Part shown: positions 1,878 to 12,481 of the stretch, piece after piece
Numbering within the stretch: the first letter of the stretch is position 1
Layout of the letters: every line of letters starts with the position of its first letter
DNA from: Pseudomonadota bacterium
GTDB lineage: Bacteria > Myxococcota_A > Polyangia > Polyangiales > JAKSBK01
Direction: 5' to 3'
Assembly (NCBI GenBank): GCA_022361155.1
Contig: JAKSBK010000307.1
Coordinates: forward strand, 1-50,851
Length of the DNA: 50,851 nucleotides
Program-made: the position numbers and the translations under genes
Notes under the pieces: generated by a model
The model's input: the letters and a program-made list of their open reading frames with translations, nothing else
Told to the model about the DNA's origin: nothing
Database searches by the model: none

Positions 1878-2245
1878 AACGACGTTGCACGAGGCCGAAT
1901 GAGGTTAGACCAGTTTCTCTGATTGGGTGTACAATTGACTGGCGTAGGGCTGGTGTGAGAGAGTATGCTACACATACAACACGCAACATGGAGCCTGGCG
2001 AGCCAGATCGCAGCGCTGTGTGCGGAGTTGAACGATCCGCGGCTGGGGGGCGGCCCATGTCGGGTTGTGGTTCGTGGGGACAGGGATGGCTATACTGATC
2101 TACCGGTGCACGGTGCTCGACAAGGGTCCGGGTATGGCCTGCACGCGAGCTGCGAGGGCGTACAGGTGATGCTCGCAGCGCGTTGGTGTCGCATGGCGCT
2201 TGGGAGCACGCGTTCGGGGCGACTGAGAGGTGGAGGGCAGGGACC
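1878..2245. other. Intergenic region before the kinase
   Basis: This 368-base stretch contains no recognisable gene. Short open frames cross it on both strands but lack family resemblance. A TTGACT at about 1934 and a TATGCT about 23 bases downstream are too far apart to call a sigma-70 promoter. The Shine-Dalgarno-like GGAGGG for the kinase lies at its right end. Confidence 0.5.
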
Positions 2246-4306
2246 ATGAGTGGGACCAGAGCTGCAGCATCGGGCGGCGATCCGCTGACCGGTCGGGTCA
2301 TCGCCGCAAAGTACGAGCTGGGTGAAGTGCTCGGCACGGGATCGATGGGCAAGGTCTATCGTGCGACCCACACAGGTTTGGGGCGCACCGTGGCCGTCAA
2401 GATACTGCACGGCTCGTACCAGAACGAAGCTCGGATGGTGGCTCGTTTTCACCGCGAAGCACAGGCGGCGAGCCTGATTCATCATCCGAACGTTGTAGAG
2501 ATAATCGACTTCGGCCAGGAGCAAGACGGCACCCTCTATATCGTCATGGAGTTCTTGGAGGGCACGAATCTCCGTCTCTTGATCGAGGAACAGGGGTTGA
2601 CGCAAAGCCGGGCCACCTACCTCATGGCGCAGATTCTGTCGGCGGTCGCGGCTGCGCACGCCAAGGGGATCGTCCACCGCGATCTGAAGCCTGAGAACGT
2701 CGTCGTGGTCTCCAAAGAGGGCGACGACGGCCAGCAACTCGAAGTCGTGAAGATCCTCGACTTCGGCATCGCCAAGATCAAGTCCCGCGGCGCGGCCGGG
2801 GGCGTGATGGCCCAGACCGTGGAGATGGCCACCGGCACACCGGAGTTCATGTCACCGGAGCAGTGCAGCGGCAAACCGCTCGACGAACGCAGCGACGTGT
2901 ACTCCTGCGGCTGCCTGCTGTACGTGCTGCTCACCGGGAGAGTGCCGTTTACCTCGGAGAGCGCTGTCGGGACCGTGCTCAAGCAGGTCAACGAGGCGCC
3001 GATCCCGCCCTCGCAGTGCAACCCCAAACTGTCCTCGCATTTTGATGCCATCGTGTTAAGGGCGCTGGAGAAGAAGCCCGACGATCGCTATCAAGAGATA
3101 CGTCAGATGCGCGGGGACCTGCTGCAGCTGGCCGACCGTCTCCAGCTGGGTCCCATTCCTCACAGCGGTCCCTTACCCACGCTTCGGTCTTCGGACACCG
3201 AAGGCGACGCGTCGGGTGTGGTGAGCTCCGAGAGGGATACACGTCCAGATGGCCGAAAGAAGGGGGGTTCGCGGCCCTTGGACGTGCCCAGTGCCAAGAG
3301 CCGATCCGGCAGCCGGATCATGCTACTCGCCGGCGCGATGTTCTTGTCGGCCGCCGGGGTGGGCATTTACGGCTTGGTCAAGAAGACGCGCTCCGCAGCT
3401 CTGGTCGCCCCCGGCGAAGTCGTCGCCGTAGCGTCCACTCCCGCTGCCATGAACGAAGTACCCGAAAGGTTCCCCCCTCCGGTCGAGCGCGAGATTGCAG
3501 TCGAACAGCGCCCCATCGCTCCGCCGGACGACGTCGTTCCGCCGGATGGCATCGCTCCCCCGATCTCCCCCAACGAGCTCGAGGATATGGTTGCGATACC
3601 CCCGGCGCCACTGCGCACGAAAGGCGAGGAGGCTCCTGCCTTCCGGCCGGCTCCCAAGGCCAAACCGCCGAAGCGGGGTTGGACACCAAAACGCCCAGCA
3701 ATCAAGAAGCAGAAGAAGAAGCGATCGGCTCGAACCGCGTCGCGCCGCCCAACCGCGAAGGCCAAGAAGGTGGAAGCGTCCCCGGCCGTTGCGACGCAAA
3801 GACAAGACACGCGGAAAACGTCACCGCAAGCCCTGGTAGCGGTCCCAGCGCCGCCACCCTCAGCGGCGCCGTCCGGAGCGACTCCGCAGCCTCCGCCAGC
3901 CGGTCAAGCCATGCCGCCTGCCGCGGCACCATCGCAGCCTCCCCCGGCGCCTCGCCCGGCAGCTCCTCCGGTCCTTGATGCAACGACGCAAATAGCTCGG
4001 TGGCAAGTCCAAGGGCCCTTGCCCTCGTCGGTGCTCCGGCGGGCGGTCCAGCGGCTTGAGGGCGATATCGATCGCTGCTACACTTCGGCGGCCCGGCGGG
4101 TCGGGAAGGATGGCTTTGGTGAGGTGCGGGTTGCGTTTCGGATAACCACGACCGGGCGCGCTTCCGCGGTCGAGACTTCCGGCGGTGGCTTGCCGGGTCT
4201 GGATCGCTGCGTGCGGGGAGTGATCGCTCGCGTGGTGTCGCGGCGCAAGCCGGATCTGGGAGAAGCCAGGGCAGCCTTCGTGGTTCAGTTCCGCAAGCCA
4301 CGCTAA
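2246..4306 (+). CDS. Membrane-anchored Ser/Thr protein kinase with AgmX/PglI-type C-terminal domain
   Basis: A eukaryotic-type (PknB-like) kinase of 686 residues. The kinase domain spans about residues 23-300, with the glycine loop GTGSMG (30-35), catalytic lysine VAVK (K52), HRDLKPEN (catalytic D146), DFG (D172) and a GTPEFMSPEQ activation segment, so it should be active. A transmembrane helix follows near residues 355-378, then a linker very rich in Pro, Ala, Lys and Arg. The last about 95 residues (from RWQVQGPL, with paired Cys in DIDRCYTSA and LDRCVRG) resemble the AgmX/PglI C-terminal domain of myxobacterial envelope proteins. I infer a cytoplasmic kinase coupled to a periplasmic sensor or partner-binding tail. 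The start at 2246 is favoured by GGAGGG about 10 bases upstream. The TAA stop is immediately followed by the repeat arm at 4307. Confidence 0.9.
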   Translation: MSGTRAAASGGDPLTGRVIAAKYELGEVLGTGSMGKVYRATHTGLGRTVAVKILHGSYQNEARMVARFHREAQAASLIHHPNVVEIIDFGQEQDGTLYIVMEFLEGTNLRLLIEEQGLTQSRATYLMAQILSAVAAAHAKGIVHRDLKPENVVVVSKEGDDGQQLEVVKILDFGIAKIKSRGAAGGVMAQTVEMATGTPEFMSPEQCSGKPLDERSDVYSCGCLLYVLLTGRVPFTSESAVGTVLKQVNEAPIPPSQCNPKLSSHFDAIVLRALEKKPDDRYQEIRQMRGDLLQLADRLQLGPIPHSGPLPTLRSSDTEGDASGVVSSERDTRPDGRKKGGSRPLDVPSAKSRSGSRIMLLAGAMFLSAAGVGIYGLVKKTRSAALVAPGEVVAVASTPAAMNEVPERFPPPVEREIAVEQRPIAPPDDVVPPDGIAPPISPNELEDMVAIPPAPLRTKGEEAPAFRPAPKAKPPKRGWTPKRPAIKKQKKKRSARTASRRPTAKAKKVEASPAVATQRQDTRKTSPQALVAVPAPPPSAAPSGATPQPPPAGQAMPPAAAPSQPPPAPRPAAPPVLDATTQIARWQVQGPLPSSVLRRAVQRLEGDIDRCYTSAARRVGKDGFGEVRVAFRITTTGRASAVETSGGGLPGLDRCVRGVIARVVSRRKPDLGEARAAFVVQFRKPR

Positions 4307-4470
4307 GGGCCCACGGAAGAATAGCTCGTCTGTATCGCCGAGGGCCGGGCGCCGTTGGCAAGGCGCAACGACGAGGGGTATTGGGGATATTTCGAGGAGG
4401 CGCAACCTAGCCAGCGGTGGTCGGAACCGGTGAGATGGATGAGTTATTCTTCTGCGGGCCCTAAGGGCCC
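4307..4470 (+). repeat. Full copy of a dispersed inverted-repeat element (MITE-like)
   Basis: The left arm (4307-4333) and right arm (4435-4461) are imperfect inverted copies: GGGCCCACGGAAGAATAGCT versus, on the minus strand, GGGCCCGCAGAAGAATAACT. Between them lies a body, of which 4314-4415 aligns to 38227-38329 with about 8 mismatches in about 100 bases by eye. The right end repeats GGGCCCTAAGGGCCC. No transposase is present. It could be a non-autonomous mobile element or an extended intergenic palindromic repeat. Confidence 0.7.
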
Positions 4471-4648
4471 ACTCGACAACAACTCGGTGTCGGCGCTGTT
4501 TTCGAGGGCTTTTCTTGATCGACGTGAGCCGCGAGCGCGTCGCCCTGCACGGCCGCGGCCGATCGAGTTATGCTTGGCTGGGCCCAAGGGCGGTCGGAGC
4601 CGGCGAAACGGGAAAGCCATTCTTGAACGGGCCCTAAGGAGAGCAAGC
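4307..4648. other. Intergenic region holding the repeat element and the leader of the exported-protein operon
   Basis: About half of this stretch is the repeat element. The remainder (4471-4648) has no gene that I can support. It ends with GGGCCCTAAGGAG (4629-4641), which supplies the ribosome-binding site for the gene at 4649 and echoes the outer edge of the repeat arms (compare GGGCCCTAAGGAGG at 22-35). Confidence 0.5.
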
Positions 4649-5734
4649 ATGCAACTTCCACCTTCCGCCCGCATTCTGGTGATTGCGAGCGCTTTCGGCA
4701 CACTTGCCTGCCTGGGTCCCCGCGCCTCGGACGACGTCGTCGATAGCCCCGAGTGGCTACCGTTCGATGTGCCTGTTCCCGAGTGCACGTCCAATCCACG
4801 TTTGATGCAACAAATCGACAAGTTCGATGGTATCGACTCGCTCTACATTCCCAGACAGAAGGCCTACGCGGGAGGCCAGGAGGTCATGTTTTGGGATTTC
4901 GGCGTGGCGCCCCGTTTTGCCGTACCGGTGTGGCTTTTTAGGCGCTGCGGATTGGACGGCAAGCCTCTGATGGGCGATGAAGGGCAGCTGCCGCTGCGCG
5001 AGCCGATCGACAATCAAAACCCGGCAGCTCCTGTGTTCATGACGCACCCCAACCTGATCGATGTGGTTCCGGGCGACTCGTCGTACAGCCCGTTCTGGTC
5101 GATGTCGGCTGTGTGCATTAACGAAGCCGACTACGAATTCCGTGGCCGACCTATCCTGGCGAGTTTCCAGGCCATCAGTCATGCGGTGCAGGTTGGCATG
5201 GCTGCCGAGCCGATGGACATGGGGATGTGGGCAAACTGCCCGGTTGTATCGCCGCTTGCCCGGCTCGATGTGGGCTTGGGCGCGCCCCCGGTGCCGCCCC
5301 ACGGGGGATTCTACAAAGGCCACAAGGTCTATTACTACCACCTCGGGCGCATGGATCCGGATCCGTGCAACCCGATGGGGCCGCCTTCGGGTGTGTACAA
5401 GCTCGACACCGCAGGGCTCGTTGCGACTGGGCTCGTGTACATGTTCGAACGTGAGACAGGCGGGCCGTCGTGTCCGCGTGTGTTTCAGTTTCCCCGGCGA
5501 TTGCCGCCGCAGATGGGAGGTTGCAAGGTGCCGGAGTACAGTCCGCTCTGGCGTGAGGTGCGCGTGACCTTGATTGACTCAGCGCAGTGTTTCATGTCAG
5601 AAGCAGAGATGTTCAATAGGGCACCAGGCGGTGAGCTCGTTTACACGCAGCGAGGCAGCGCAGCGATAGTTAGGCACGAAGTCACCGACAACTACGTGAA
5701 TAACGCGATCCAATGGGAAGCGGGACTGGAGTGA
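4649..5734 (+). CDS. Predicted exported lipoprotein, possibly DUF7482-like
   Basis: A 361-residue protein whose N-terminus (MQLPPSARILVIASAFGTLAC) looks like a signal peptide ending at a Cys21. The lipobox GTLAC is not ideal, so plain secretion is also possible. The mature part is not an enzyme I can name. It contains two stretches of the form PGDSSYSPFW and PEYSPLW followed by hydrophobic strands, plus GGFYKGHKVYYY; I recall a similar pattern in the uncharacterised DUF7482 family, but this is unverified. Cysteines are few and there is no heme motif. The ATG at 4649 has AAGGAGAG five bases upstream. Its stop overlaps the next gene's GTG start, so it leads the operon with two cytochrome-like proteins and an outer-membrane barrel. 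Confidence 0.75.
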   Translation: MQLPPSARILVIASAFGTLACLGPRASDDVVDSPEWLPFDVPVPECTSNPRLMQQIDKFDGIDSLYIPRQKAYAGGQEVMFWDFGVAPRFAVPVWLFRRCGLDGKPLMGDEGQLPLREPIDNQNPAAPVFMTHPNLIDVVPGDSSYSPFWSMSAVCINEADYEFRGRPILASFQAISHAVQVGMAAEPMDMGMWANCPVVSPLARLDVGLGAPPVPPHGGFYKGHKVYYYHLGRMDPDPCNPMGPPSGVYKLDTAGLVATGLVYMFERETGGPSCPRVFQFPRRLPPQMGGCKVPEYSPLWREVRVTLIDSAQCFMSEAEMFNRAPGGELVYTQRGSAAIVRHEVTDNYVNNAIQWEAGLE

Positions 5735-6201
5735 GAACGACCGCGTGGTTGGCATGCCTCTGCTGCGTGGTGTCCGGTGGGTGTCTGGCGGAACACCTCG
5801 CCGAGCCCGAAGTGGGAGCTGTCAGCCCATATCGATGCAGTCCAATCGGTGACAGCGATCCCGACCGGGATGTGTCGTTCTCGAATCAGATCCTCCCGCT
5901 CTTTCTGCGGCCGCCGCCAGCGCCGGGGTGCGGCTGTCATCTGCCGACTTCCCCTAACCCGGTAGGGCTCATGTCGACCGGATTGGATCTGTCAACGTTC
6001 AGTACGCTGATGGCGGGCGGGACAGGCGCGGCGATTCCGATCGTGGCTCCCGGAAAGCCCTGCGAGAGCCTGCTCGTGCAGAAGGTCGGTGAATCGCCAC
6101 CGTTCGGAACCAGAATGCCTCGCACGGGCCCCCCCTTTCTCTCGGATAGCGAAATCCAGCTCATCAAGGACTGGATCGCTGAGGGAGCCCTTGAGAACTG
6201 A
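5731..6201 (+). CDS. Exported cytochrome-c-like lipoprotein with atypical CXCH motif
   Basis: A 156-residue protein starting at GTG 5731, which overlaps the previous stop as GTGA. The N-terminus is a hydrophobic signal ending in VVSGGC, a probable but non-ideal lipobox. The mature protein resembles the short cytochrome-like domains common in Planctomycetes and Myxococcota: a Cys-His motif (GCGCHLPTS), an APGKPCESLL stretch, MPRTGPPFLSDSEI and an ending LIKDWIAEGA. The Cys-His site is CGCH, not the canonical CXXCH, so covalent heme c attachment is doubtful. The gene overlaps the next one by 11 bases. I infer a role in the same envelope complex as its neighbours. Confidence 0.75.
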   Translation: MRTTAWLACLCCVVSGGCLAEHLAEPEVGAVSPYRCSPIGDSDPDRDVSFSNQILPLFLRPPPAPGCGCHLPTSPNPVGLMSTGLDLSTFSTLMAGGTGAAIPIVAPGKPCESLLVQKVGESPPFGTRMPRTGPPFLSDSEIQLIKDWIAEGALEN

Positions 6202-6736
6202 TCGACCGGCGCCTCTCCTGACCCGACGCCTTGCAAGTGTCGCGTTGGCCGCGACACTTGCCGCCGGCTGTGGCGGAATGCAGCGCACGGGAGGCGTCGA
6301 CTCGAGGATCGACCTGGAGAAACTGCCATCCGAGGTCCGGACGGCGTACCACGTTTTCGCTTCCCACTGCAGCCGCTGTCACACTATCGCGCGTCCACTG
6401 AACGCTTACGTTCGGCGAGTCGAGCACTGGAACAGGTACGTCCATCGCATGATGCGTCAACCCGGTAGTGGCATCAACCCGCGCGAAGCCAAGGTGATCC
6501 TCACGTTCCTGCACTACTACACCCTGGAGATCAAGGGGCTGAAACCCCTTCAGGATGAGCCGCAGGCGTCTTCGGAGCCGACGGGGGCGGACCTCATCGC
6601 CCCGAACCCGGGGGTCCGGCCGGTGCCTGCCGCCGCGCAGCCGTCCGAGCAAGCCCCTTCCGAGCAGCACGCACCGAACCCGCGGCAACAAGCTCAACCG
6701 CCTCACCAACCCCTCGATCCATCCCAGCAGCCCTAG
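6191..6736 (+). CDS. Exported lipoprotein with one canonical heme c motif
   Basis: A 181-residue protein read from TTG 6191, in frame and 11 bases inside the previous gene, with GAGGGAG just upstream. The next in-frame ATG upstream (6089) lies deep in the previous gene and would bury the signal peptide. The N-terminus gives TRRLASVALAATLAAGC, a likely lipoprotein signal. The mature part carries HCSRCHT, a canonical CXXCH, in a small helical domain of about 90 residues (RRVEHWNRYVHRMMRQPGSG is typical of small c-type domains). The C-terminal third is Pro-, Gln- and Ala-rich and probably disordered. It likely carries a single heme in the periplasm or at the outer membrane, acting with the barrel protein encoded 12 bases downstream. 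Confidence 0.78.
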   Translation: MRTDRPAPLLTRRLASVALAATLAAGCGGMQRTGGVDSRIDLEKLPSEVRTAYHVFASHCSRCHTIARPLNAYVRRVEHWNRYVHRMMRQPGSGINPREAKVILTFLHYYTLEIKGLKPLQDEPQASSEPTGADLIAPNPGVRPVPAAAQPSEQAPSEQHAPNPRQQAQPPHQPLDPSQQP

Positions 6737-6748
6737 AGGAAGGCTAGC

Positions 6749-7939
6749 ATGTCACCAGGCCAACGAGACCGTATCAAGCCGCTTCTGCTGATCGGCGCGG
6801 GCTTGGCCACCGCGTTCGTCGCCGGGAGCCTGCAACCACCCGGAGCAAGCAGCCAGGACCGTAACCTCGCCGGCTCGGCCCAGGGGAGTTACGTGTTTGT
6901 TCCCACCAACTCGAATGCTCGTAAACAGACTTTCGACGGTTTCATCACGGAGGTGACGATCAAATTGGCCGTGGACTTCACGGAGCGTGTGTCAGCGCAG
7001 GTCAAGCTCTGCTACGGGTGTCACGGTGTCGAATTCGACATGGCGTTCATGGATTTTTGGGCGGCCGACGAGATCAACTTTCGTGTGGGCCGTTTCAACC
7101 CTGCCTTTGGTGATTTCCCCCTGCGCCACGACCCAGCGAACCATCGCACGATCAATAAGCCCCTGCCGTACGACATGGGGCGGATGCTGCGCTTGCGTGA
7201 GTACAACATGAGCGTGATGCCCTCGCCGTATGTCGACAACGGAGTCGAGGTCAATGGAACGCACTGGTTTGGTGAGTCGCTGCAGGTGGACTATGCCATG
7301 TACGTTGTCAGCGGCTTCAAAGGGAGCAGGGACGGTTCCGGACTCGACTATATCCAGTCGCGTTCGGGTTCGTTCTACTACGTCGACAACAACTCGAGGC
7401 CAGCCCTTGGTGGGCGCCTCGCGCTGACGTTGGATCTTGGATCCGCCGCCACGGTTACACTGGGCGGCTCGGCCATGCATGGAACCTACGATCCGGACAA
7501 TCGTCTCGGATACACACTTGCCGGAGCGGATTTCTACGCGCGGCTGGGCAAAGTCGATCTTCGAGCGGAGTACCTGCGCAGGCGCACCGAGGTCCGAGTT
7601 GGTACCGATCCGTTCAACCGTTTCGCCTATCTTCCGGTCAAGAAGAACGGGGGGGACTTCTGGTCGAGCTACTTCCTCAAGGATGGGTTTTATGCCCAGG
7701 CCAACATGGAGGTGACTCCCCGACTGGAGCTCGTGGCTCGTTTCGACGGAATCCGGCGCCTTGGCAACGTGCTTGCCACCAGCCCGCTGCGCAAGGACTC
7801 GCTGGTGTTGCGCTACACGCCCGCGGTGAACGTGGTCTTCGACCACACGCTCCGACTGAAGCTGCAGGGAGAGTTCTACGATTTCAGCGATTTCAAGGAC
7901 GAAATCGCTGTCAGTGCAGCACTGGTGTCCGTGTTCTAG
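6749..7939 (+). CDS. Outer-membrane beta-barrel (porin-like) carrying a CXXCH motif
   Basis: A 396-residue protein starting at ATG 6749, preceded by AGAGGAAGG. A signal peptide (LLLIGAGLATAFVAGS) is followed by alternating hydrophobic strands and aromatic girdle residues, and the protein ends in Phe (LVSVF), the usual mark of barrel proteins handled by BamA. RVGRFNPAFG near residue 115 resembles phosphate-selective-porin-like barrels. Unusually, CYGCHG, a canonical heme c attachment site, lies near residue 90 between two predicted strands. It closes the operon of exported cytochrome-like proteins. I infer a heme-bearing or heme-contacting barrel; a simple porin with a fortuitous motif is the alternative. 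Confidence 0.75.
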   Translation: MSPGQRDRIKPLLLIGAGLATAFVAGSLQPPGASSQDRNLAGSAQGSYVFVPTNSNARKQTFDGFITEVTIKLAVDFTERVSAQVKLCYGCHGVEFDMAFMDFWAADEINFRVGRFNPAFGDFPLRHDPANHRTINKPLPYDMGRMLRLREYNMSVMPSPYVDNGVEVNGTHWFGESLQVDYAMYVVSGFKGSRDGSGLDYIQSRSGSFYYVDNNSRPALGGRLALTLDLGSAATVTLGGSAMHGTYDPDNRLGYTLAGADFYARLGKVDLRAEYLRRRTEVRVGTDPFNRFAYLPVKKNGGDFWSSYFLKDGFYAQANMEVTPRLELVARFDGIRRLGNVLATSPLRKDSLVLRYTPAVNVVFDHTLRLKLQGEFYDFSDFKDEIAVSAALVSVF

Positions 7940-8981: not shown

Positions 8982-9839
8982 ATGCCTGGGCAGCTTATCG
9001 ATGGCAAGTCTGTTGCTGCGGCGGTTCGCGAGCAGGTCCGTGGACGGGCCGATGCTTTTGCGGCACGCCACGGACGCCCCCCTGGGCTCGAAGTCGTGCT
9101 GGTGGGTGACGACGCCGCTTCGCAGGTGTACGTCCGAAACAAGGAGCGCGCGAGCGGCAAGGTCGGGATTCGAAGCAACGTTCACCACCTCCCCGCGGAC
9201 ACCACGGCCGGGCGGCTCGGCGAGCTGCTTACCCGTTTGGATGCCGATCCGCTGGTGGACGGCATCCTGCTTCAGATGCCGCTGCCAGGGCAGCTCGATC
9301 CCGATGCCATGCTCAGCCAGATTCGCGCTGGGAAGGACGTAGACGGGCTGACGAACGAAAGCGTGGCTCGACTGGTGTGCGACCAGCCTGGTTTGAGACC
9401 CTGTACGCCGCTCGGGTGCATGCGGCTGCTGGCGGAGGCAGGCTGTGATCCACAGGGGAAGCACGCCGTTATCGTGGGTCGTAGCAAGCTCGTGGGCAAA
9501 CCGTTGGCGCACTTGCTGCTGCAGCGCAACGCAACGGTCACGGTTGCGCATTCCCGAACCAAGTCGCTCGCTGACGTGGTGCAACAGGGCGACATCGTGG
9601 TAGCCGCTGCCGGTCGAGCGGGACTGGTGCGGGGTGCCTGGATCAAGCCGGGGGCCGTCGTGATCGACGTGGGAATTAACAGAGACGCGGAAGGCCGACT
9701 CCGAGGAGACGTGGATTTCGAGGCTGCAAGGGAGCGAGCCAGCTGGATCACGCCGGTTCCAGGTGGGGTCGGACCCATGACCATTGCGATGCTGCTCAGC
9801 AACACCGTGGACGCTGCCAACGCCCGCCTCGGCCACTAG
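8982..9839 (+). CDS. folD: Bifunctional methylenetetrahydrofolate dehydrogenase / methenyltetrahydrofolate cyclohydrolase
   Basis: Interconverts 5,10-methylene-, 5,10-methenyl- and 10-formyl-tetrahydrofolate in the cytoplasm, supplying one-carbon units for purines and formyl-Met. The 285-residue length is normal. Visible signatures are SQVYVRNKERA with the catalytic Lys, DGILLQMPLPGQLD with the conserved Gln, the GKDVDGLT Asp, PCTPLGCMRLL, the NADP loop VIVGRSKLVGKP and the terminal PVPGGVGPMT. The ATG at 8982 gives the usual N-terminus (GQLIDGKSVA). It stands between lgt and the copper-protein operon with no obvious partner. Confidence 0.95.
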   Translation: MPGQLIDGKSVAAAVREQVRGRADAFAARHGRPPGLEVVLVGDDAASQVYVRNKERASGKVGIRSNVHHLPADTTAGRLGELLTRLDADPLVDGILLQMPLPGQLDPDAMLSQIRAGKDVDGLTNESVARLVCDQPGLRPCTPLGCMRLLAEAGCDPQGKHAVIVGRSKLVGKPLAHLLLQRNATVTVAHSRTKSLADVVQQGDIVVAAAGRAGLVRGAWIKPGAVVIDVGINRDAEGRLRGDVDFEAARERASWITPVPGGVGPMTIAMLLSNTVDAANARLGH

Positions 9840-10046
9840 AGGTACAACGACCAGAGCGCTGAACGGGTTGGTACCAGGCGGCTTGAAATCGGCTTGCCGG
9901 CCGGCTAGGTTGGGCTTCCATCGTGGCAGAGGGAGGCCAGTACCGGTTGCAGCACGTGCCAGGCAACGGAACGCGCAGGAGCTGGGGCAAGCGAGCGCCC
10001 GAGCGGTGCATGTTGGTCAACGGACGATAATCAGGAGGAGCGGCTA

Positions 10047-11879
10047 ATGCGTGAGATAGGGAACACCCCTCTGGTGGTTGAGACCAAGGCCTTGTTGTTT
10101 GCGTTGTTGTTTGTGTTGTTGATCGGCTGCGCCGGTGATGCGGGTCCTGCCGGCGAGCCGGGGGCGCCGGGTGAAGCGGGTCCTGCGGGTCCTGCGGGCG
10201 ATCCGGGGCCGGCACCGAGCGAGGCACAGATAGCAGGTGTGATCGACAACGTCCTCGGCGGCTGTCGCGGCCTCACGCTAAGCGCCCAGGAGTGGGATGA
10301 GGTCTTCGAGATCGGACAATTCATCGCTTCTGGCGAGGAACGCGAGGTGTGTTCCCTCCATCGGACGGGGCCAGAGGATCTGTTCATGAGCGAGTCCGAG
10401 GTGATCATGAACAAGGGCTCGCACCATGGCTTGCTGTTTCTCACCGGCTACACGGAGGTGCCCGCCAAGGACCTGAAGGGGGAGCCGGTCGAGCTGGGCA
10501 AGGTCGTCCCCTGCGAGGATGCGCCGAATTCCCGATTCGACGTGACCTCGGTGCTCTCGGGCAGCCAAGGTACGGGCAACCTCACGGCCGACGGGCAAAT
10601 CCCCGAAGGCGTGGCCTTGAGGATCCCAGCGAACTCCCTCGTGGTCATGAACTACCATCTGCTGAACGCAACGGACGAGGACCTGAGCGCCTGCATGAAG
10701 ATCGGGCTCAAGGGCATTCCCAGGGCCGAAGTTCAGCAGGAGGCTGGGGTGCTGTTCTTCTATAATCCCTTCATTAGCGTTCCGGCACAAGGGATGGCTC
10801 GGGCCCGGATGGCATGTCCCATGACGCAGGACATTCAGCTTGGGAGCGCGGTCTCGCACATGCACGCCCGGGGCGTGGGCTACAGCGCCCGTTGGCTCGA
10901 TGCGAGCCCCTACGACCCCAGCAGCTCGACGATTCAGATGCTCTACGAGACCACGGAGTGGGAGGCGCCGGAGCCGAGGGTGTTCGAAACGCCGCTGGAG
11001 CTGAAGACGGGACAGTGGATAGACTACGAGTGTCAGTACGAAAACCCAGAGCAACGTGACGTTGCGCAGGGGCTCGATACGAGCGATGAGATGTGCATGT
11101 TCATCGGCTTGTACTGGCCCAAAAACGATGCGCTCTCGAATTGCGCCATGGAACGGGACGAGGGCATCGTCAATGCGGGCTACAACATCGGAGACGGGGC
11201 GCTGTCGGGAGCCGGTTTCCTGGAGTGCCTGTGGAACGGTCCGCTCGACTTCGAAACCTGTGGCTCCAAGCGCTGCAGGTCGCCCGAGGACCGCTACGCG
11301 ACCCAAGCCTGTTTCACCCAGAGCTGCGAGGCCGTCGGGCAGTTCAGCCGAGCCTATTTGGATTGCGCCGGCGACAACCTGGACACCTGCCAACGGCAGT
11401 GCACTGCGGCCGCCAGCGAGTACCAGACCTTGTGTGCGATCACGGCAGTGGCGGAGGGCGGCTGCGCCGAGAAGTTCGGCAGCGATGGCTCCGACGGTAC
11501 CTGCGCCACCTCAGCTGAAAGCTTGCACGAGGCTGAAGCACGCTGCCGGCAGGCTACCCGCCAACAGGCCCTCGACCAGGTCTGTCGCGGATTGCCGCAG
11601 GCGGCCGGGGGCTGTGCCGAGGTCTGCGATGTGCCGGATGCGATGGCTTGCAGCGCTTGCCTGGGCAGCGTGGATTTCGTCCAGACCAACACAAGCTGCC
11701 GCAACGTGCGCAGCCTGCGCTGCCTCGGGGAGCAGGTGCAGGCCGTGGCCGAGAGCTGCGTCAAGGAGTGCTTCGCCGAGTGCCTGCCGCAGGCCATCGG
11801 CACCTGCACCATCGATTGCCTCAGCTCGGGGCCTTGCGGGACCGAAACCAGCGGATTGCTTGGAGCCACCTGCAAGTGA
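10047..11879 (+). CDS. Lipoprotein with collagen-like linker, copper type II monooxygenase-like core and Cys-rich tail
   Basis: A 610-residue protein. A lipoprotein signal (ALLFVLLIGC) is followed by a collagen-like Gly-X-Y stretch (about residues 30-56). The core matches the peptidylglycine/dopamine monooxygenase type: HH at 126-127, H204 in NYHLLN, HMH at 271/273 and a Met in SDEMC (M349). Both the order and the spacing of these ligands agree with the two copper sites CuH (His, His, His) and CuM (His, His, Met). From about residue 385 to the end comes an unrecognised tail with roughly thirty cysteines, probably disulphide-bonded. AGGAGGAG lies just before the ATG. The stop overlaps the next gene's GTG. 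It likely acts at the cell surface or in the periplasm as an ascorbate- or other-reductant-dependent hydroxylase; the substrate is unknown. Confidence 0.82.
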   Translation: MREIGNTPLVVETKALLFALLFVLLIGCAGDAGPAGEPGAPGEAGPAGPAGDPGPAPSEAQIAGVIDNVLGGCRGLTLSAQEWDEVFEIGQFIASGEEREVCSLHRTGPEDLFMSESEVIMNKGSHHGLLFLTGYTEVPAKDLKGEPVELGKVVPCEDAPNSRFDVTSVLSGSQGTGNLTADGQIPEGVALRIPANSLVVMNYHLLNATDEDLSACMKIGLKGIPRAEVQQEAGVLFFYNPFISVPAQGMARARMACPMTQDIQLGSAVSHMHARGVGYSARWLDASPYDPSSSTIQMLYETTEWEAPEPRVFETPLELKTGQWIDYECQYENPEQRDVAQGLDTSDEMCMFIGLYWPKNDALSNCAMERDEGIVNAGYNIGDGALSGAGFLECLWNGPLDFETCGSKRCRSPEDRYATQACFTQSCEAVGQFSRAYLDCAGDNLDTCQRQCTAAASEYQTLCAITAVAEGGCAEKFGSDGSDGTCATSAESLHEAEARCRQATRQQALDQVCRGLPQAAGGCAEVCDVPDAMACSACLGSVDFVQTNTSCRNVRSLRCLGEQVQAVAESCVKECFAECLPQAIGTCTIDCLSSGPCGTETSGLLGATCK

Positions 11880-12481
11880 GTCGGCCGGCGCCGGAGGCTG
11901 CGGCGCTGCTTGCCCTGGGACTGGGATTGCTGGTCGTGGCCGGCTGCGACTCGGAACAAGCTCAGGTTCCAGCCGACGCCGGCTCGGAGCCTGGATTGGA
12001 TGCCGGAGGGGGCGCGGGCGGGCGTGGCTCCGACGCTGCAAGCGACGCCCCGCCAGGCGAGCCCGGAAGCGACGCCGGCGCTTGTGGTGCAGGCCAGACA
12101 CGCTGCGGAAAGCGCTGCATCGATCCGATCACTCCGGACATCCAGTCGCTGCACAAGAGCATCTTCAAGACGAGCTGCGGGCTCAGTACCTCCTGCCACG
12201 CCGGCGGCTCGGCGAAAGAGGGGTTGAGGATGGCGACGGTGTCGGACGTATTCGACACCGCCGTTCGGCAGCCCTCTCGCCAGCGGCCGGCCGTCGCAAT
12301 CATCGAGCCCGGTGATCCTGGCAAGAGCTACCTGCTCAACAAACTGAGCGGAATGGACATCGCCGCCCGGGGCAGCACAGGCATCCCTGCCACCGCCATG
12401 CCGCCGCCTCCGAACGGCATGCTCTGCGAGCACAAGATTCGTATGATCGAGCAATGGATCGCGCAAGGCGCGAAACGCTGA
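11876..12481 (+). CDS. Exported lipoprotein with cytochrome-like Cys-His motif (CX5CH)
   Basis: A 201-residue protein from GTG 11876, coupled to the upstream copper protein as GTGA. The signal LGLGLLVVAGC is a good lipobox. A Gly/Ala/Asp-rich linker (about residues 25-75) leads to a compact domain: CGKRCIDP, IFKTSCGLSTSCHAGG, IIEPGDPGKSYLLNKL, TAMPPPPNGMLC and MIEQWIAQGA. This is the myxobacterial and planctomycete cytochrome-like pattern, but the Cys-His site is CGLSTSCH and not CXXCH, so heme c attachment is uncertain; the cysteines may be disulphide-bonded or bind metal. It likely partners the copper protein, perhaps as an electron donor; that role is inferred only from position. Confidence 0.78.
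   Translation: MSRPAPEAAALLALGLGLLVVAGCDSEQAQVPADAGSEPGLDAGGGAGGRGSDAASDAPPGEPGSDAGACGAGQTRCGKRCIDPITPDIQSLHKSIFKTSCGLSTSCHAGGSAKEGLRMATVSDVFDTAVRQPSRQRPAVAIIEPGDPGKSYLLNKLSGMDIAARGSTGIPATAMPPPPNGMLCEHKIRMIEQWIAQGAKR

Follow-up and report, generated by a model that had tools for sequence, protein, structure and literature searches.

The window, i.e. the whole 50,851-nucleotide stretch of DNA analysed here, carries a conserved operon encoding a DUF7482-like lipoprotein, a PSCyt1-like lipoprotein, a monoheme cytochrome lipoprotein and, as its last gene, a predicted outer-membrane barrel protein, with overlaps among the genes up to the barrel. The features considered below are as follows:

2183-4306, forward strand: Ser/Thr protein kinase with an AgmX/PglI-type tail (PF00069, E 9e-52; NF033768, E 3.4e-5)
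4649-5734, forward strand: DUF7482-like lipoprotein (PF24298, E 0.0025), with a probable ATG at 4649 inside the open reading frame 4355-5734
5713-6201, forward strand: PSCyt1-like lipoprotein (PF07635, E 0.039; TIGR03806, E 5.5e-4) with a conserved RMP (Met) region
6191-6736, forward strand: monoheme class I-like cytochrome c lipoprotein with lipobox LAAGC, CSRCH at 6368-6382 and the Met region RM..QPGSGI
6749-7939, forward strand: putative heme-porin gene, an open reading frame of 396 aa with a signal peptide, a predicted 16-stranded OprO/P-like barrel and a C-terminal Phe
7010-7024, forward strand: CYGCH, predicted heme c motif (C88, C91, H92), at the beta3-beta4 hairpin (L2) in both structural models and invariant in 69/69 members
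7124-7144, forward strand: RHDPANH, in the long beta5-beta6 loop (L3), with H132 (7142-7144) as candidate distal heme ligand
7169-7186, forward strand: Y141-D-M143-G-R-M146, in L3, with M143 (7175-7177) as alternative candidate distal ligand

The barrel gene opens with an ATG downstream of a GAGGAAGG-like ribosome site, and its product has a signal-peptide-like N terminus. An earlier note on this DNA had proposed an outer-membrane barrel on the basis of the C-terminal Phe and the porin-like stretch RVGRFNPAFG; both features were confirmed in the open reading frame, the latter at residues 112-121. CYGCHG corresponds to residues 88-93 (7010-7027), no cysteine other than C88 and C91 occurs anywhere in the protein, and a CXXCH arises in 1 of 10,000 shuffles of its own residues. 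The window protein had no Pfam match at E up to 1, and so none to PF07396 or PF11854; its best NCBIfam match, a porin, was insignificant, and a PDB sequence search returned nothing meaningful. Among its relatives, 15 of 20 matched Porin_O_P (PF07396) at E up to 1 (best E 1.4e-4). By these profile matches, the barrel protein is distantly related to PF07396 and does not count as one of its members.

AlphaFold models of the window barrel (pLDDT 68.4, pTM 0.70) and of a 52% identical relative (pLDDT 63.9, pTM 0.68) each comprise 16 strands; both are of moderate confidence, based on 6 sequences and heme-free, with much of L3 below pLDDT 50. A Foldseek search with the window model identified OprP (2o4v) as the best PDB match (E 1.7e-11), the model of the relative matched 16-stranded porins in the PDB, with OprP 2o4v ranking eighth, and a viral fold search gave mainly porin-type matches, none with heme noted. 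In both models the CXXCH lies at the beta3-beta4 hairpin (L2), after three predicted barrel strands and outside any N-terminal domain, which agrees with its original description as lying between two early strands, and RHDPANH falls in a beta5-beta6 loop (L3) of roughly 50 residues. All the long loops are among those leading from odd to even strands, and the connections from even to odd strands are short turns, the pattern of porins whose loops are extracellular and whose turns are periplasmic. The models suggest that CXXCH, H132 and M143 lie on the extracellular or constriction side. As to whether the site faces the periplasm or the pore, the placement of the motif in L2 is common to both models, whereas the facing side and the ligand distance are what we infer, because the loops are low in confidence. 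Aligned by profile with heme-less O/P porins (E 1.4e-11), the family matches from just after the motif onward, and by our reading the CXXCH appears to occupy the position of their L2 loop.

Profile searches for the barrel family were confined to the host phylum. Among 318 class genomes, whole-genome searches identified about 52 with strong relatives, mostly full-length, and 3 more with fragments only; a sample of the phylum added relatives in 14 genomes outside the class. Scanning a genome collection with the barrel returned 5 loci; those relatives that are named carry the labels Myxococcota, Kofleriaceae, Deltaproteobacteria and, once, Proteobacteria. A second barrel copy, 56% identical, was found in the window's own genome (G000:C236), and a search of plasmid records gave none. 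We fetched 70 distinct strong members, the motif region being covered in 69. Aligning homologues had been put forward as the check on the motif, and it upheld the claim: both cysteines and the histidine (C88, C91, H92) are kept in all 69 covering members, which rules out a chance motif. Equally invariant are K86, R126, D128, H132, Y141 and M143, and H127 is present in 66 of the 69. The mature protein has no Cys beyond the CXXCH pair in 48 of 49 members checked.

CXXCH was absent from the open frames of all 23 weak-scoring, distant porins from the host phylum. These heme-less relatives likewise lack H132 and M143 in the profile alignment (0/23), the absence of H132 being slightly alignment-dependent, as one of them (L027) has a His at that column when aligned differently; 14 of the 23 retain H127. 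H127 was disfavoured as distal ligand, since 3 members lack it and heme-less porins often have it. A tree built from the columns after the motif, with the motif region left out, placed all heme-motif members in one clade (support 0.93) apart from the heme-less porins, and the sole motif-less sequence inside this clade is a truncated remnant (L024). On the simplest reading, CXXCH, H132 and M143 would have been gained once.

Closer inspection of the neighbouring genes supported the remark that the lipoprotein at 6191 also has a CXXCH, in that CSRCH stands behind its lipobox; its Pfam and NCBIfam cytochrome matches are weak, SorB-type among them. We counted the neighbours of the barrel gene in 35 distinct loci whose flanks were long enough: the monoheme cytochrome gene lies beside it in 28 loci, the PSCyt1-like gene does so in 30, and one or both of these cytochrome-type genes adjoin it in all 35. 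The DUF7482-like gene is a conserved upstream neighbour in many loci. Among relatives, a Ser/Thr kinase gene is often found directly upstream of the operon, and we tentatively link the kinase at 2183-4306 to it. The DUF7482-like, PSCyt1-like and cytochrome genes lie downstream of the barrel in one locus (L125), and partner genes also follow it in L003/L136 (DUF7482-like and PSCyt1-like in L003), indicating that the gene set was kept and its order changed.

The PSCyt1-like lipoprotein of the window has CGCH (CxCH) at 5929-5940. CxCH replaces CxxCH in 8 of 16 aligned relatives (L003, L030, L031, L033, L034, L040 and L049 are included among the CxCH relatives), with the rest of the PSCyt1-like domain kept. 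If heme is attached there, this would be an unusual motif.

We also compared the barrel family with known systems. The earlier note was mistaken in stating that the heme of known conduits is housed in separate proteins, as both Cyc2, a functional monoheme fused cytochrome-porin acting as an iron oxidase (PMC8406198), and Cyc572 of Leptospirillum, an outer-membrane cytochrome c with a predicted 16-stranded porin-like barrel (PMC10654088), are single polypeptides. Cyc572, compared by description only, resembles the barrel family as a porin-like outer-membrane cytochrome, and differs in being described as part of a Cyc572-Cyc579 system (PMC10654088). With the OprO/OprP phosphate-selective porins (PF07396) the family shares fold, strand order and a similarity in Pfam and profile comparisons that is weak but consistent; these porins have no heme motif, whereas in the barrel family a CXXCH replaces the L2 loop and L3 has the new H132 and M143. 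MtrCAB, PioAB and PCC systems likewise combine a barrel and c-type cytochromes in one gene cluster, but there a 26-stranded barrel is threaded by a separate multiheme cytochrome, in contrast to 16 strands, an own heme motif and single-motif partners here. Identity with an MtrB/PioB conduit was rejected, as neither the barrel protein nor the window's genome yielded a PF11854 match.

One alternative is that the family is a divergent branch of the Cyc2 iron oxidases, with which it shares its part list: one polypeptide that combines an outer-membrane barrel, predicted as 16-stranded and OprO/P-like, with a single CXXCH (PMC8406198). The definition of Cyc2 includes AXPXFAR[Q/K][T/Y] just upstream of CXXCH (PMC8406198), but none of the barrel-family sequences examined has P.FAR[QK][TY] upstream of the motif or PXL shortly downstream of it. 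Moreover, Cyc2 has an N-terminal cytochrome domain on the periplasmic side, whereas here the CXXCH comes after three predicted barrel strands, in L2, with candidate ligands in L3; unlike Cyc2, the family has a set of co-encoded cytochrome-type lipoproteins, and its closest relatives in our searches are heme-less porins from the host phylum. We thus rejected Cyc2 membership, which we regard as highly improbable. Failing the Cyc2 motif tests and forming one clade apart from heme-less porins, the family looks like an independent, differently built heme-porin, probably a fused cytochrome-porin of independent origin. What is new relative to Cyc2 and Cyc572 is the predicted location of the motif in the L2/L3 loops instead of an N-terminal domain, together with an apparently separate origin, and our literature search found no paper on such a heme-motif porin in Myxococcota.

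The two other alternatives concern what the motif does. CXXC pairs are able to bind Zn or form disulfides, and the CXXCH might be a metal site or redox disulfide instead of a heme site; the invariance of the full motif including its His, its co-occurrence with H132 and M143 and the cytochrome-type neighbours in 35/35 loci make this distinctly unlikely. A heme porin could also act at the cell surface in sensing, gating or detoxification (of O2, NO, peroxide or sulfide), possibly together with the Ser/Thr kinase encoded upstream, a proposal favoured by the frequent position of such a gene just upstream and by the inability of one heme alone to span a membrane. Ser/Thr kinases are, however, abundant in the genomes of such bacteria anyway, and the co-encoded cytochrome-type lipoproteins with conserved Met regions suggest an electron-transfer chain, so that we consider this proposal unlikely.

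We find it reasonably probable that the barrel is an OprO/OprP-derived heme-porin, with heme c at L2 and a ligand from L3, that serves outer-membrane electron transfer with its lipoprotein partners. Conservation, candidate distal ligands that covary with the motif, the predicted structures and the operon setting together lend good support to the initial proposal of a built-in heme c motif, and heme is very probably attached to the barrel protein at the CXXCH; electron transfer as the function of the system is fairly likely. According to this heme-porin model, an ordinary OprO/OprP-type porin ancestor would have acquired covalent heme c once, held by the CXXCH of L2 (beta3-beta4) and ligated on its other face by the invariant H132, or else M143, of L3. 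L3 of 16-stranded porins folds into the pore. The heme would be located in the channel's extracellular vestibule or constriction, where it could encounter, inside the pore, a small soluble electron donor or acceptor (Fe(II), some other metal ion or a small organic redox compound), and electrons would pass to or from the monoheme cytochrome and PSCyt1-like lipoproteins at the periplasmic mouth of the barrel. We give even chances to the full combination of a pore that forms the heme pocket (L2 attachment, L3 distal ligand), a single-origin family separate from Cyc2 and a small outer-membrane conduit with single-motif cytochrome lipoproteins. Ligand identity, partner docking, direction and substrate are all points that we infer: electron uptake into the respiratory chain seems somewhat more likely than export, and Fe(II) as substrate is a guess. 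The distance from a single heme on the extracellular side to a partner in the periplasm may be too great for fast tunnelling, unless the heme is brought deep into the pore by L3 or the lipoproteins are exposed at the surface.

To our knowledge, few ways exist for single-heme proteins to move electrons across the outer membrane, Cyc2 being the main one, and we know of no association of this myxobacteria-group class with surface electron exchange. If true, the heme-porin model would add a second heme-porin, of a different build and present in about one sixth of the class genomes searched (about 52/318), indicate unrecognised surface electron exchange in this group, exemplify how an ordinary porin turns into a cytochrome, and provide a marker gene missed by iron-oxidation screens keyed to Cyc2.

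In the window's genome, three cytochrome c assembly-type proteins score above the family cut-off and a COX1 oxidase is also encoded; RuBisCO was not found in it, giving no sign of autotrophy by that route. A genome-wide CXXCHG DNA pattern was uninformative (28 matches versus 24 for the reversed control). An instance of natural loss was identified in G011 (10.33 Mb, single contig), where the upstream genes are kept, the barrel gene is reduced to its C-terminal part and no match to the monoheme cytochrome gene was obtained. The operon is intact in G029, of the same genus. Retention of only a barrel remnant suggests that the putative heme-porin system is dispensable in G011. A deletion-like junction lies at about 9612-10474 of the G011 locus (L048), and its PSCyt1-like gene is cut short. 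Further along the window, a copper type II monooxygenase-like protein that contains a collagen-like stretch is encoded at 10047-11879, followed by another PSCyt1-like gene at 11648-12481.
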